Source: Candidatus Gastranaerophilales bacterium (GTDB taxonomy: Bacteria; Cyanobacteriota; Vampirovibrionia; Gastranaerophilales; Gastranaerophilaceae). From it: a stretch of 64,000 nucleotides of DNA. The stretch's first letter is position 1. Each line of letters opens with the position of its first letter. The stretch is from contig CALURK010000008.1 of assembly GCA_944323165.1 (NCBI GenBank), positions 1-64,000 of the forward strand. Reading direction: 5' to 3'. Positions 4,569 to 59,189 of the stretch are shown piece by piece. The notes beneath the pieces are model-generated. The model worked only from the letters and a program-made list of their open reading frames with translations. It made no database searches and was not told the DNA's origin. The translations under genes and the position numbers were made by a program.

Positions 4569-5318
4569 ATGGAAAAAATAGATTATTTAAAAGAATTTAT
4601 GGCAAAACTGCAATCTTTAGACCGTTCAAAGGATAAGGTTACCGTCTTTAAAGACTTCTTGACATTATGTACCTGTTCATTAGCACAACCAATCTATAGG
4701 AGTGAAAAGCTAGAGCAAAGATACTTAGAAACAGTGAAACAATATACTAAAGAGCAAGCAGAAGAATTTTCAAAACTGCTTGCTCTTTTAGTTATGGCTT
4801 TGGAAGAAAAATACCAAGACTTTTTAGGTGAAGTGCATATGTCTTTGAATTTGAGCAGTAAAGCTAATGGTCGGTATTTTACTCCTTATCCTGTTTGTAA
4901 GTTTATGGCAGAGATAAATTTCTTTGAAGTAGAAAACTCAGGTAAATTGCAGGATAAAGAATTAATAACACTTTCAGAGCCTTGTTGCGGAAGCGGTGCA
5001 ATGATTATAGCTTTTGCCGAAACTATGAGAAAACATAATTTCAAATATCAGAATCAGCTTTATGTCAAAGCAACTGATATCAATGATCTTTGCTTAATGA
5101 TGACATACATTCAATTATCACTGCTTGGAATTCCTGCCAAAGTAATACTCGGAGATACTTTATCTTTGAAATTTCAACAAGCACTGTACACACCGTTTTA
5201 TTATCTGAACGGTATTGAGTTCAAACTTCAAAAAATCAATTCTGACACAAAACAAGAACTTATAGAACCTGAAAATAATCAAAAACAAAATATGCAATTA
5301 CAACTATTTCAACTATGA
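4569..5318 (+). CDS. Partial N6-adenine DNA methylase (HsdM-like, motif I only)
   Basis: 249 aa. An N-terminal helical region is followed by RYFTPYPVCKFMAE, the F-T-P block that precedes the catalytic domain in type I M subunits. The S-adenosylmethionine-binding motif SEPCCGSGAM is at residues 136-145 and an acidic ATDINDLC strand follows. The expected catalytic NPPY/F (motif IV) is missing; after GDTLSLKF the protein turns into TPFYYLNGIEFKLQ and ends. Short proteins of this kind are known on plasmids and integrative elements. It may bind SAM without methylating DNA, or be a decoy or anti-restriction factor. The ribosome binding site is AGAGGT and the gene leads the element's rightward cluster. 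Confidence 0.65.
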   Translation: MEKIDYLKEFMAKLQSLDRSKDKVTVFKDFLTLCTCSLAQPIYRSEKLEQRYLETVKQYTKEQAEEFSKLLALLVMALEEKYQDFLGEVHMSLNLSSKANGRYFTPYPVCKFMAEINFFEVENSGKLQDKELITLSEPCCGSGAMIIAFAETMRKHNFKYQNQLYVKATDINDLCLMMTYIQLSLLGIPAKVILGDTLSLKFQQALYTPFYYLNGIEFKLQKINSDTKQELIEPENNQKQNMQLQLFQL

Positions 5319-22343: not shown

Positions 22344-22350
22344 ATTAGCT

Positions 22351-22719
22351 GACGACGAGACTCGTGTCTTGCTCGGTCGCGTTTAACGAGTCTGCGTATT
22401 TTTTGTTTTGTGCTATCGCACACACAAAAAACACTCCGCTCTCAGCTCCCTCGCGCAACTCGCATAATGCAACTTCTCGCACTGTCTATAGGCTAATACA
22501 AAGGAGCCCCTTAAAAGGACTCCTCTGTACTAGCGGACGACGAGACTCGTGTCTTGCTCGGTCGCGTTTAACGAGTCTGCGTATTTTTTGTTTTGTGCTA
22601 TCGCACACACAAAAAACACTCCGCTCTCAGCTCCCTCGCGCAACTCGCATAATGCAACTTCTCGCACTGTCTGTAGGCTAATACAAAGGAGCCCTCAAAA
22701 GGACTCCTCTGTATTAGCG
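22351..22719. repeat. Two tandem copies of a 185-bp repeat ending at tRNA-Gly
   Basis: Copy 1 is 22351-22535 (185 bp) and copy 2 is 22536-22719 (184 bp), with only a few differences. Each copy begins with GACGACGAGACTCG, which is also the 3' end of the adjacent tRNA-Gly, so the tRNA starts what looks like a third copy. Each unit contains a strong hairpin (TTTTTTG...GTGC-TATC-GCAC...CAAAAAA) and a copy of the tRNA's terminator. Open frames here are repeats of each other, not genes. Confidence 0.85.
22690..22712 (-). terminator. Terminator of tRNA-Gly
   Basis: On the minus strand AGGAGTCC-TTTT-GAGGGCTCCT, followed by TTGTATT. A second copy with one extra base lies at about 22504-22527 in the tandem repeat. 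Confidence 0.55.
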
Positions 22720-22787
22720 GACGACGAGACTCGAACTCGCGACGTCAACCTTGGGAAGGTTGCATTCTACCACTGAATTACATCCGC
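22716..22787 (-). tRNA. tRNA-Gly (CCC)
   Basis: 72 nt. The acceptor stem GCGGATG pairs with CGTCCGC and the discriminator is T, normal for Gly. The anticodon stem-loop is CAACC-TTCCCAA-GGTTG, giving anticodon CCC. The T-arm GAGTTCGAGTCTC is present. No CCA is encoded. Its 3' end is duplicated in the tandem repeats downstream. Confidence 0.92.
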
Positions 22788-55383: not shown

Positions 55384-58035
55384 ATGCTAAAAGGAAATGA
55401 AATTAGGAAATTATACTTAGATTATTTTAAAGATAAACATCAACATACCATAGTAGAAAGTTCAAGCCTAGTGCCTGATAACCCTACTGTATTATTAACA
55501 ACCGCAGGTATGTTGCAGTTTTTGCCGATATTTTTAGGGATACAAAAATGTCCTTATAACCCTGCAAGAGCAACATCTTGCCAAAAGTGCGCACGAGCAG
55601 GCGGAAAAGATTCTGATATAGAAAATGTAGGAAGAACACCAAGACACCATACGTTTTTCGAAATGTTAGGAAACTTCTCTTTTGGTGATTACTATAAAAA
55701 AGAAGTTATTCCTTGGGCTTGGGAATTTGTAACAGAAGTTTTGAAACTTGATAAAGACAGATTATGGATAACGATTTTTGAAACTGATGACGAGGCTTAC
55801 GAAATTTGGAGAAGTGTAGGCGTTCCAGCAGAACGTATTAAGAGAAAAGGTAAAAAAGACAATTTCTGGGGCCCTCCAGGGGCATCAGGTTCTTGCGGAC
55901 CTTGCTCAGAAATTCACTATGATTTAGGTGAAGAATACAAATGTGATGATCCAAATTGTGGTATTGATACTTGTGAATGCGACAGATGGGTAGAAATTTG
56001 GAACCTTGTATTTACAGAACTTTATCAGGACGAAGAAGGAAACCAATCACCATTGGAGAAGAAAAACGTGGATACCGGCATGGGCTTGGAACGTATTGCA
56101 ATGGTATGCCAAGGTGTTGCGTCAACTTTTGAAACTGATTTGTTAAGACCGATTTTAGACAAAGTTTCTGAAATGAGCGGTGTTCCTTATAAAAAATCTG
56201 AAAAAACAGATATTTCTCTTAGAATAATTACCGATCACGCAAGATGCGTAACTTTCTTGATTTCAGATGGTGTAATTCCTGGAAATGAAGGCAGAAGCTA
56301 CGTACTTAGAATGATTTTAAGACGTGCTTTAAGACACGGAAAAATATTGGGAATGGAACTTCCTTTCCTTTATAAATTAGTTGACGTGGTTGTCGATAAT
56401 TACGGTGAAGCTTATCCTGACTTGGTTAAGAATAAGGCTAAGATTATTGATGTAATTAAGAAGGAAGAAGAACGTTTCTCTAAGACTCTTGATAGAGGAT
56501 ACAAAATGTTAGAAGATTTTATATCCGACAAAAAAGATATAGACGGAGAAAGCGCATTCAAATTGTATGATACATACGGCTTCCCATTTGAATTAACCAA
56601 AGAAATCGCTTCAGAGAACGGATTAAACGTAGATGAAGAAGGCTTCAAATCTGCAATGCAAGAACAAAAAGACAGAGCAAAAGCTGCTGCTGAAAAAATT
56701 TCCGTAACAGGCGATATAAAATATGCAAAAGTAGAAGAGCAAGTAGGTTCTACAGAATTTGTAGGTTATCTAGTTGACTGCTGTGAAGCAAAAATTCTTG
56801 CAACAATTGAAGGTGATGGCTACGTGGATGTTGTTCTTGACAGAACTCCTTTCTACGCAGAATGTGGCGGACAAGTCGGTGATAGCGGATTTATTGTTAA
56901 CGAGAATTTGAAAGCCGAAGTTCTTACGACATTTAAAGTAAACCATCTTTTTGTACACAGATGTCAGGTTGTAAATGGTGAAATCAATATAGGTGATTAT
57001 GTTTTTGCCCAGATAGATTCGGCAAGAAGAGCGCAAATAAGAGTTCACCATACATCAGCTCACCTTCTTCAAGCTGCATTGATTAAGGTTCTTGGAGATG
57101 AAGTAAAACAAGCAGGATCTCAGGTAGAAGAAAACAGGATGAGATTTGACTTTACTTTCTCACGTGCGATGACACCTCAAGAAATTGAAAAAACAGAAGA
57201 AATTATGAACAAATGGATAGGCGAAAAACTTCCTGTTCAAACTGATGTAATGAATATTGAAGAGGCAAAACTTACAGGTGCAACTGCTTTATTCGGCGAA
57301 AAATATGAAGACGTCGTAAGAGTAGTAACAATTGGCGGTAAGAAAAAATGCAATTGCGGTGACGGAAATTGCAAGGGGCATCAGGAACACCCTGAACACG
57401 AAGTTGTATCCAAGGAATTCTGTGCAGGAACTCATGCTTCAAATACGGCAGATTTAAGATTGGCAAAAATTGTATCAGAAGGCGCAATCGCAGCAGGTAC
57501 AAGAAGAATAGAAGTTGTAGTAGCCGATGCTGCAATCAAGTATTTGAACGCAAAATCTGCTGAAATTGACAAACTTGCTTCAAAATTCAAAGTTCATTTT
57601 GACGAAGTGGAAGCAAGAATAGAAAAAATCCTTGAAGAAAACAAAGAACTTCAAAAATCTTTGGAAGAAACGAAAGCAGAAATGGCAAGAAGTAAATTCT
57701 CAACATTTATTTCAAAAGCTCAAGATATTGAAGGCGGAAAATTGTTTATCTCCAAGATAGAAAACTTCGATTCAGACGCAGTAAAAGCAGGAATTGAACT
57801 TTTGGCAAACAAACTCGGAGAGTGCATTATAGTTCTTGCTAATGAAAGAATGGTAGTAGTAAAAGTTACCGATAGTTTCGTTAAGAAAGGCATCAATGCA
57901 GGCAAACTTGTAGGAGAGATTGCAAGAGCAACCGGCGCAAACGGCGGCGGACGTCCAAACTTTGCTCAAGGCGGTGTGAAAGACGCTTCTAAATTGGATG
58001 AAATTTTAGCCAAAGTTGAAGGTGATTTAAAATAA
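55384..58035 (+). CDS. alaS: Alanine-tRNA ligase
   Basis: 883 aa, full length. Class II motifs: FFEMLGNFSFGDYYKKE, the CGPCSEIHYD block with a Cys-rich CDDPNCGIDTCECDRW, IWNLVFTELYQ and DTGMGLERIAMV. The editing domain has HHTSAHLLQAAL and CAGTHASNTADLR. An extra Cys/His-rich insert (CNCGDGNCKGHQEHPEHE) sits between the editing motifs. The C-Ala domain ends GGGRPNFAQGG. It charges tRNA-Ala and hydrolyses mischarged Ser/Gly. Transcribed after the F-x-G gene; a strong terminator follows. Confidence 0.97.
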   Translation: MLKGNEIRKLYLDYFKDKHQHTIVESSSLVPDNPTVLLTTAGMLQFLPIFLGIQKCPYNPARATSCQKCARAGGKDSDIENVGRTPRHHTFFEMLGNFSFGDYYKKEVIPWAWEFVTEVLKLDKDRLWITIFETDDEAYEIWRSVGVPAERIKRKGKKDNFWGPPGASGSCGPCSEIHYDLGEEYKCDDPNCGIDTCECDRWVEIWNLVFTELYQDEEGNQSPLEKKNVDTGMGLERIAMVCQGVASTFETDLLRPILDKVSEMSGVPYKKSEKTDISLRIITDHARCVTFLISDGVIPGNEGRSYVLRMILRRALRHGKILGMELPFLYKLVDVVVDNYGEAYPDLVKNKAKIIDVIKKEEERFSKTLDRGYKMLEDFISDKKDIDGESAFKLYDTYGFPFELTKEIASENGLNVDEEGFKSAMQEQKDRAKAAAEKISVTGDIKYAKVEEQVGSTEFVGYLVDCCEAKILATIEGDGYVDVVLDRTPFYAECGGQVGDSGFIVNENLKAEVLTTFKVNHLFVHRCQVVNGEINIGDYVFAQIDSARRAQIRVHHTSAHLLQAALIKVLGDEVKQAGSQVEENRMRFDFTFSRAMTPQEIEKTEEIMNKWIGEKLPVQTDVMNIEEAKLTGATALFGEKYEDVVRVVTIGGKKKCNCGDGNCKGHQEHPEHEVVSKEFCAGTHASNTADLRLAKIVSEGAIAAGTRRIEVVVADAAIKYLNAKSAEIDKLASKFKVHFDEVEARIEKILEENKELQKSLEETKAEMARSKFSTFISKAQDIEGGKLFISKIENFDSDAVKAGIELLANKLGECIIVLANERMVVVKVTDSFVKKGINAGKLVGEIARATGANGGGRPNFAQGGVKDASKLDEILAKVEGDLK

Positions 58036-58051
58036 AAACAGATTAAAAAAA

Positions 58052-58079
58052 GGGCGGTCGGATTATAATCCGACCGCCC
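58052..58079. terminator. Terminator after alaS
   Basis: GGGCGGTCGGAT-TATA-ATCCGACCGCCC with A-run before and G-TTTTTT after; works in both directions. Confidence 0.88.
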
Positions 58080-58084
58080 GTTTT

Positions 58085-58339
58085 TTATTGCATACATTTT
58101 CCTTGGCTGTCAAAAAATTCTTCAACCTTTAGTTTATATTTATCATTGATCCCCTTCATATCTTTAGTTAGCAATTCAACAATATAACTATAAACATGAA
58201 GAAAATTGAAAAGACTTTTCGTATCGTCTTTACTCAAATCCCAATAAGTATCAAAGAGTTCATTAACAAACATTTTGTTAACAAATTCTAAAGCTTCAAT
58301 TGGATATGAGATATCTATAGTAAAATCTTCTAAGTCCAT
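58085..58339 (-). CDS. Small acidic hypothetical protein, divergent from the AbrB-like gene
   Basis: 84 aa, predicted all-helical and acidic (MDLEDFTIDISYPIEALEFV, FNFLHVYSYIVELLTKDMKG). The start follows AAGGAGG. It is not a family I know. It shares a 99-bp promoter region with the AbrB-like gene in which TTATAAT boxes are phased at 11 bp. By position it could be the partner of the AbrB-like protein, yet the divergent layout differs from standard toxin-antitoxin operons. Confidence 0.5.
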   Translation of the reverse strand: MDLEDFTIDISYPIEALEFVNKMFVNELFDTYWDLSKDDTKSLFNFLHVYSYIVELLTKDMKGINDKYKLKVEEFFDSQGKCMQ

Positions 58340-58351
58340 AAGACCTCCTTT

Positions 58352-58429
58352 ATTATAATGAAATTATAATAATATTATAATATGTTTGTCAAGTGTCTTG
58401 TTATAATAATGTTATAATAAAATTATAAT
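58352..58429. repeat. Six TTATAAT boxes in two triplets with 11-bp phasing
   Basis: TTATAAT starts at 58353, 58364, 58375 and then 58401, 58412, 58423. Spacing inside each triplet is exactly 11 bp, about one helical turn; triplet starts are 48 bp apart. Four copies extend to the palindrome ATTATAAT. The array fills the divergent promoter region, so it may be a cooperative operator, stacked -10 boxes, or both. Confidence 0.75.
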
Positions 58430-58438
58430 GGGGTACTA

Positions 58439-58594
58439 ATGTCCAAAAAACTTACACAAATCGGTACGAGTTGGGGATTTATAATACCAAAAGCATTGTT
58501 AGAAGTATTAAAAATAAACCCTGTAACCGATAAAATAGATTTTGAAATAGAGGGAAAAACTTTGAAGATAACAAAGGCTTCAAAGGATGATTAA
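58439..58594 (+). CDS. AbrB/MazE-like DNA-binding protein (51 aa)
   Basis: 51 aa; too short for common cut-offs. The pattern KKLTQIGTSWGFIIPKALLEVLKINPVTDKIDFEIEGKTLKITKAS matches the swapped-hairpin AbrB/SpoVT fold (G-x-S-x-x-x-x-I-P-K-x-x-x-x-x-L, then beta strands). Such proteins are antitoxins or transition-state regulators. The ATG is 9 nt from a TATAAT box and has no real Shine-Dalgarno sequence. The phased array upstream is a natural candidate operator. Confidence 0.7.
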   Translation: MSKKLTQIGTSWGFIIPKALLEVLKINPVTDKIDFEIEGKTLKITKASKDD

Positions 58595-58688
58595 TATTGA
58601 AAAATAGTTCTTTTTAGCTATTGAGAAAAGTCTAAAGTGTGATATAATCTTTATATACTATAAGAGTATAAAGAAAGGTTTAAATTTT

Positions 58689-59189
58689 ATGACAAGTGGG
58701 CTATCTCTAAATCTTCAATTAATGCAGGATTTGACCTCTACGTTGAATTCAAAAAGTAATCAAACTCAAAACAGTAAGCCTGAAGTGTATGCCAAAGAGG
58801 GTGAATCACGTTATATTGAGGAAATGGACTATGATGGCGACGGTGTTGTCACAATGGACGAGTACCAAAAGTACTTGGAAGAAAATAGCGTAAGTACTAC
58901 TCAGCAGGCTCAAAATGTTCAGAGTATGGGCGATTCAATGGTTAATCGTCAGGTTGCCGAGCAAGCAGAGCAAACAGAAACTCAAGAAAAGAAATTTGAT
59001 TACAATGAATATATGCAGTACTGTGAAGCTAATGCCGTATCTCAACCTTCGACGTACGCAGCGATAAAACCTGAAAACATTGAAACCAACGAAGCAGGAC
59101 TTATAATTCATAATTTTGGAAAAGCCTTAAACAGTTATTCAAAAAGTAATTTGAATTATGCGACATCAAAATTTGAGATGAATGCTTAA
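58689..59189 (+). CDS. EF-hand protein, Gln/Asn/Ser-rich
   Basis: 166 aa. A perfect 12-residue calcium loop DYDGDGVVTMDE (about 48-59) with Asp at 1, 3, 5 and Glu at 12 is followed by the exit helix YQKYLEEN. A second hand (KFDYNEYMQYCEAN, about 100-113) keeps the helix but lost the loop. No signal peptide. The rest is low complexity. It has a TATAAT-type promoter and GAAAGG ribosome binding site. Its 3' end overlaps the tsaC end by 4 nt on the other strand. Function unknown; calcium binding inferred. Confidence 0.65.
   Translation: MTSGLSLNLQLMQDLTSTLNSKSNQTQNSKPEVYAKEGESRYIEEMDYDGDGVVTMDEYQKYLEENSVSTTQQAQNVQSMGDSMVNRQVAEQAEQTETQEKKFDYNEYMQYCEANAVSQPSTYAAIKPENIETNEAGLIIHNFGKALNSYSKSNLNYATSKFEMNA

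Follow-up and report, generated by a model that had tools for sequence, protein, structure and literature searches.

DNA-binding domains of the MazE/AbrB type are usually met as antitoxins or as global regulators. Phased repeats next to a promoter are known from the ParR-parC system of plasmid R1, where two clusters of 11-bp direct repeats flank a promoter and are bound by a small dimer; this system serves plasmid segregation and consists of a ribbon-helix-helix protein together with the ParM ATPase. According to the part of PMC4803016 available to us, the MazE antitoxin-type DNA-binding domain acts on its own promoter. For the AbrB-like antitoxin Phd of Enterococcus faecalis, the accessible text of PMC13034048 describes that the isolated domain, fragment 1-55, binds a perfect 10-bp palindrome near its promoter. 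AbrB of Bacillus subtilis is a global regulator whose C-terminal domain matters for DNA binding, as described in the available part of PMC4022651.

Here, we describe a locus of a Candidatus Gastranaerophilales bacterium in which a very small protein of this class lies beside a phased array of palindromes. The window is the whole stretch of DNA that was analysed, 64,000 nucleotides of contig CALURK010000008.1, and all coordinates in Table 1 refer to it. Our search of the literature on AbrB/MazE operators and on regulators of Gastranaerophilales/Vampirovibrionia found no title on this system. Both genes of the locus, the 51-aa and the 84-aa reading frame, have the extent and strand given by a first-pass annotation of the sequence.

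Table 1. Features of the locus, with positions in the window.
Feature	Position	Strand	Remark
Terminator-like hairpin, bidirectional, between alaS and the 84-aa gene	58052..58079	.	
Approximate two-gene cassette (84-aa and 51-aa genes)	58085..58594	.	in seven relatives, alaS directly adjoins the EF-hand-like gene
84-aa acidic divergent partner, predicted all-helical	58085..58339	-	net charge -8, pI 4.4
Left triplet, boxes ATTATAAT	58352..58381 (58352-58359, 58363-58370, 58374-58381)	.	over the 84-aa gene promoter
84-aa gene promoter, TTGACA + 18-nt spacer + TATAAT (12/12 consensus)	58363..58392	-	sequence match
Right triplet, boxes GTTATAAT, GTTATAAT, ATTATAAT	58400..58429 (58400-58407, 58411-58418, 58422-58429)	.	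just upstream of the 51-aa gene
51-aa MazE/SpoVT-AbrB-type DNA-binding protein, predicted DNA-binding domain only	58439..58594	+	proposed repressor of both promoters

The array between the divergent genes consists of six RTTATAAY 8-mers, three toward each gene, with start-to-start steps of 11 and 11, then 26, then 11 and 11 bp. The first-pass annotation had reported six boxes at exact 11-bp steps within each triplet, and they are present where it placed them. RTTATAAY is its own reverse complement, so every box is an 8-bp palindrome, a property that the earlier description did not include. It had also put all boxes on one face of the helix, which holds only within each triplet: with 10.5 bp per turn, the inner 26 bp amount to some 2.48 turns, which places the two triplets on roughly opposite sides. 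The -10 element of the 84-aa gene promoter sits inside the middle left box. In the right triplet, the first two boxes resemble extended -10 elements (TGTTATAAT); on this side, toward the abrB-like gene, the window has extended -10s only, and a clear -35/-10 promoter was not found.

To judge the rarity of this layout, we searched the window for three TTATAAT-N4 units in a row with at most three mismatches. All seven matches fall inside the array, whereas 100 dinucleotide shuffles average 0.07 matches. Across the whole genome (1,927,248 bases) the exact pattern RTTATAAY-N3-RTTATAAY occurs only in this array, and the reversed control gives 0 matches. Single RTTATAAY boxes are common, with 23 in the window against 13.5 expected. 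The special feature of the array is the phasing, not the single boxes, and chance is a poor explanation of it.

The 51-aa protein has no match in Pfam at E<=10. In NCBIfam, it matches TIGR02609 (putative addiction module antidote) with an E-value of 7e-5 and 23.1 bits, under the cutoff of 55.9. Of the 18 relatives in the alignment, 11 are matched by PF04014 and 17 by TIGR02609 (E<=0.1), and the profile of the 18, compared with PDB profiles, matches MazE with an E-value of 0.003, up to position 50 of the 51 in the profile. The AF2 model has the order strand-strand-helix-strand-strand (E-E-H-E-E) and is of moderate confidence, with a pLDDT of 76. Its top Foldseek matches are the MazE structures 2mrn, 1ub4 and 2mru, the last being a MazE DNA complex, with a probability of 1.00 but weak E-values of 0.07-0.10. 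The protein is essentially a stand-alone DNA-binding domain, without a toxin-binding C-terminal tail. A single reading frame with two tandem AbrB-like domains is found at G000:C4:128802-129113 (L106, L107), and further genomes of the family have similar tandem matches.

Relatives of the 51-aa protein are found at E<=1e-3 in 209 of 383 genomes of the same family. For 95 different AbrB genes, we compared the sequence upstream; this sample is drawn from the best-scoring family matches and therefore leans toward relatives of the window protein. It also takes in the other matches of the own genome and two named records, and it leaves out places that are near-identical to others, near contig ends or lower in the match list. 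The subfamilies, LTQ, IRK, IEK, HKK and KSG, carry labels that we assigned by regular expressions.

The layout recurs in these relatives, and the AbrB-like protein beside a phased array is borne out by the comparison, as is the conservation of box number and spacing that the first-pass annotation had proposed to check. In LTQ, the subfamily of the window protein, 11-bp pairs are present in all 12 loci. When two mismatches are allowed for boxes in phase, six of these loci have 3+3 boxes, three have 3+2, one has 4+4 and two have a single cluster. Of the ten LTQ loci with two clusters, eight have an inner gap of 26 bp and two have one of 35 bp. In IRK this gap is 35 bp in 9/9 loci, eight of which have 2+2 boxes. 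The LTQ spacers between boxes are loose (0.3-0.6 bit) and the box ends keep 1.0-1.2 bit, the six core positions being uninformative here because they are fixed by the search pattern.

After removal of near-identical regions, palindromic pairs were counted against expectations of 0.5 to 1.9 for LTQ, IRK and IEK. LTQ has 36 pairs at 11 bp (expected 1.9) and none at 12, found in 11/11 loci, and IRK has eight at 11 bp and none at 12, in 7/7 loci. The IEK subfamily has 19 pairs at 12 bp (expected 1.5) and a single one at 11, in 11 of 18 loci; in the full set, nine of 21 IEK loci have no pair at 11 or 12 bp. AT-matched stretches of the same loci served as a second control, and the main spacing is again enriched (LTQ 31 vs 1.1, IRK 8 vs 0.6, IEK 16 vs 1.1). 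The autocorrelation, with a control of the AT-matched type, peaks at a lag of 11 bp for LTQ (z 10.9), IRK (z 4.7) and KSG (z 8.5) and at 12 bp for IEK (z 7.5). For KSG, which has different boxes, the palindromic-pair test is not significant (5 vs 3.2, sd 2.4), although the lag-11 signal is strong. For HKK the palindromic-pair test is weak and not convincing, and the autocorrelation gives no clear picture either.

We consider it likely that the array is the bidirectional operator of a dedicated local autorepressor, the 51-aa protein, which would bind cooperatively and control both genes. From the positions, palindromy and phasing of the boxes, their conservation within subfamilies, the overlap with the partner-side promoter and the uniqueness of paired boxes in the genome, we infer binding by the 51-aa protein and, with it, dimerisation, stoichiometry, cooperativity and repression. 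The protein would form a swapped-hairpin dimer, and one dimer would occupy each 8-bp palindrome. As the boxes are one helical turn apart, we propose that neighbouring dimers cooperate. On one side, three dimers would sit over the -10 region of the 84-aa gene, and on the other side three more would sit over the region of the promoter from which the repressor itself is expressed. Abundant repressor would keep both genes off, and a fall in its level would switch both on together. Such a mechanism is plausible because the isolated AbrB-like domain from E. faecalis binds a palindrome near a promoter, according to the accessible text of PMC13034048. In this reading, the 51-aa protein would be dedicated to its own locus rather than act globally. 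A role as an AbrB-type global regulator is not supported, as the whole-genome scan for paired boxes found the two-box pattern at this locus only.

The spacing can also be followed over the protein family. In a maximum-likelihood tree of 92 proteins, built on 53 columns after dropping L106 (two entries) and L077 and with 40 of its 84 inner branches weak, the period changes four times over 49 scorable rows, and the midpoint split yields two sides, one with mostly 11 bp and the other with mostly 12 bp. Both spacings are present in the own genome: the 11-bp array described here (58352-58429, L006) and a 12-bp array at L043, on contig C2, which lies upstream of a paralogue and starts with the same core box. 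It is conceivable, if rather doubtful, that the phasing is part of the address, i.e. that paralogous repressors sharing the core (G/A)TTATAA(C/T) read 11 versus 12 bp. If this is true, dimer-dimer geometry together with base contacts would insulate local circuits while the divergent gene, be it small helical, XRE-like or pilin-like, is swapped. The separation of related clades with a shared core box by 11 versus 12 bp offers a natural test of whether spacing, beyond sequence, insulates paralogous circuits.

The divergent gene itself differs among loci. With classes set by motif and by eye, and one XRE partner checked in Pfam, the 92 loci have a small ORF in 54 cases, a pilin-like gene in 19, an XRE-like gene in ten and an unassigned one in nine, and the class changes at least eight times on the tree. 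All nine IRK divergent genes (L005, L025, L049, L057, L064, L071, L072, L082, L086) start like pilin or pseudopilin genes, with an FTLAE-type motif, two of the reading frames being odd or short. Since all nine begin in this way, the tiny IRK AbrB proteins may control pilin-like genes.

The 84-aa partner in the window gave no significant match to a family in Pfam (none at E<=10), NCBIfam, PHROGs or PADLOC, and no toxin family was among the results, so the earlier statement that it belongs to no known family stands. The AF2 prediction, made for two sequences, gives a two-helix model of low confidence (pLDDT 60.8). Relatives of the partner are found in seven of 383 same-family genomes; one of the seven matches is weak and lies within a longer ORF. 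The homologous family, for which a profile added 8 members to the 15 seeds, also adjoins KSG and IEK AbrBs. At L042 (G288), a weak relative is divergent from an ORF that looks XRE-like in translation. Judging from this locus, the partner family may pair with non-AbrB regulators as well.

The first-pass annotation had suggested a switch locus as one reading. In such a two-gene switch, the divergent protein would be an anti-repressor of the 51-aa repressor, similar to AbbA, and the circuit would be bistable; this would add to the operator reading and not replace it. One operator is common to both divergent genes, the window partner is acidic and predicted to be helical (at low confidence), and XRE-like partners at other loci would fit too. 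However, acidity is not conserved in the partner family, where the net charge is +6 at L020, +3 at L074 and 0 at L096, compared with -8 in the window. Further, Pfam gives no AbbA hit for the 84-aa protein at E<=10, and pilin-like partners do not fit an anti-repressor. We regard the switch as rather unlikely.

The other suggestion of the annotation was a toxin-antitoxin pair, with the 84-aa protein as toxin and the 51-aa protein as MazE-like antitoxin and autorepressor. A small cassette of patchy occurrence would agree with this, and so would a domain resembling MazE and doc-partner proteins, as seen in the match to TIGR02609 under its cutoff and in the MazE profile match. The comparison contradicts the pairing in several ways: the genes are divergent rather than in one operon, the 51-aa protein stops at the DNA-binding domain so that the toxin-binding tail is missing, the divergent gene varies over the 92 loci, and no toxin family matches the 84-aa protein. 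In addition, three genomes (G366, G146 and G369) have a relative of the partner with no AbrB gene next to it, and in G366 and G369 there is no AbrB match genome-wide at E<=1e-3. Because of the gene order, the missing tail, the partner kept without AbrB and the variety of partners, we reject toxin-antitoxin as the main reading and hold it to be very unlikely. In the G366 relative, a stop lies close to the 3' end. Its locus (L037) retains one ATTATAAT box and a -35-like element, CTTGACA, with no AbrB gene adjoining, and looks like a decayed cassette.

The boxes could also be merely redundant -10 elements in AT-rich divergent promoters, with the phasing as a by-product. TATAAT is contained in TTATAAT, and the earlier observation that each box resembles a -10 element is borne out in that one box doubles as the -10 of a perfect promoter. 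The boxes of the IRK subfamily are mostly GTTATAAC and end in C in 95% of units, making them poor -10s, so the arrays are not simply copies of a promoter. Among 42 loci of LTQ, IRK and IEK, 27 have a box that contains the -10 of the best promoter toward the partner, and the remaining 15 have no such promoter. The boxes are palindromic, their phasing is absent from AT-matched stretches of the same loci, and one subfamily has a 12-bp step in place of 11 bp. All of these argue against redundant -10 elements, which we find highly improbable as an explanation, and in favour of the bidirectional operator.

Beyond the family, we scanned 117 genomes of the phylum. The profile of the 51-aa family finds matches in 39 of the 48 genomes that belong to the window's family and in none of the three from the other family of its class; nine others match weakly, with longer ORFs. 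A scan for three boxes gives four of the 117 genomes: the window's own, G195 and two with perfect 11-bp tandem repeats. In G195 (L154, 1501-1530 and flanks), three exact 11-bp-phased boxes are flanked on one side by a small ORF and on the other by a divergent ORF whose sequence suggests a ribbon-helix-helix-like protein. As this array adjoins such an ORF instead, proteins other than AbrB may use these boxes too, and the same layout may serve another repressor fold. That a different DNA-binding protein and not the 51-aa neighbour uses the window's array, as G195 could suggest, is nevertheless extremely improbable, given that the spacing varies with the AbrB subfamily and that the genome has a single occurrence of the two-box pattern, with its five further AbrB matches, at four further places, all away from the array.

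The cassette is flanked by what we take, from their sequences, to be alaS and a Sua5-like ORF, and by an EF-hand-like ORF. The EF-hand-like protein is encoded by the next co-directional gene after the 51-aa gene and has its own promoter-like site; elsewhere, the genes downstream of AbrB genes vary from locus to locus. Of 14 loci with the EF-hand-like gene that we compared, those in the own genome and at L122 have the cassette; at L122, alaS was not seen. In seven loci (L123, L128, L130 to L134) the 3' end of alaS adjoins the EF-hand-like gene without AbrB or partner, and in L124 to L127 and L129 neither the cassette nor alaS was seen in the stretch examined. Among repeats of at least 10 nt within 58000-58720, no clear target duplication was found as a signature of insertion. 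Elsewhere in the window, at 22346-22733, a 185-bp unit is repeated in tandem (2.1 copies at 97% identity).

An origin from phage or plasmid was considered and rejected, as neither protein has a match in 50,697 phage records, in 72,556 plasmid records or in viral contigs. The three-box pattern is present in 13 stretches of viral contigs. Six AbrB queries run against these stretches with tblastn gave nothing under an E-value of 0.19, so they look unrelated or carry other regulators. In one viral contig (L115), around position 5306, TTATAACATCA is found in 11-bp steps beside TGTCAAG, resembling the layout of the partner-ward promoter, and no AbrB was found in the stretch examined.

In this gut lineage, which has been little studied, stand-alone domains about 50 aa long form a family that seems to control private operators, phased and bidirectional. 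A ParMRC-type centromere was rejected for the window, given that the neighbours are alaS, EF-hand-like and Sua5-like ORFs and the candidate adaptor is MazE-like in its predicted fold. The N-terminal domain of E. coli MazE has the same predicted fold and GNS motif region as the 51-aa protein; however, MazE has a C-terminal toxin-binding tail and a toxin in its operon, and the 51-aa locus lacks both. The mazEF operator, as described in the part of the source available, is an alternating palindrome, whereas the window has phased triplets. The domain of E. faecalis Phd is related to that of the 51-aa protein. PDB entries named 'Addiction module antidote', e.g. 9vx7, are probably this Phd, and if 9vx7 is, our mapping places its contact residues K8, R10 and N14 at K4, T6 and T10 of the 51-aa protein. 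Phd has a single operator in a doc toxin operon, according to the accessible text of PMC13034048, in contrast to the six phased boxes and the divergent gene in the window. AbrB of B. subtilis belongs to the same domain class, and compared with it the window protein is without the C-terminal domain and has a dedicated local site.
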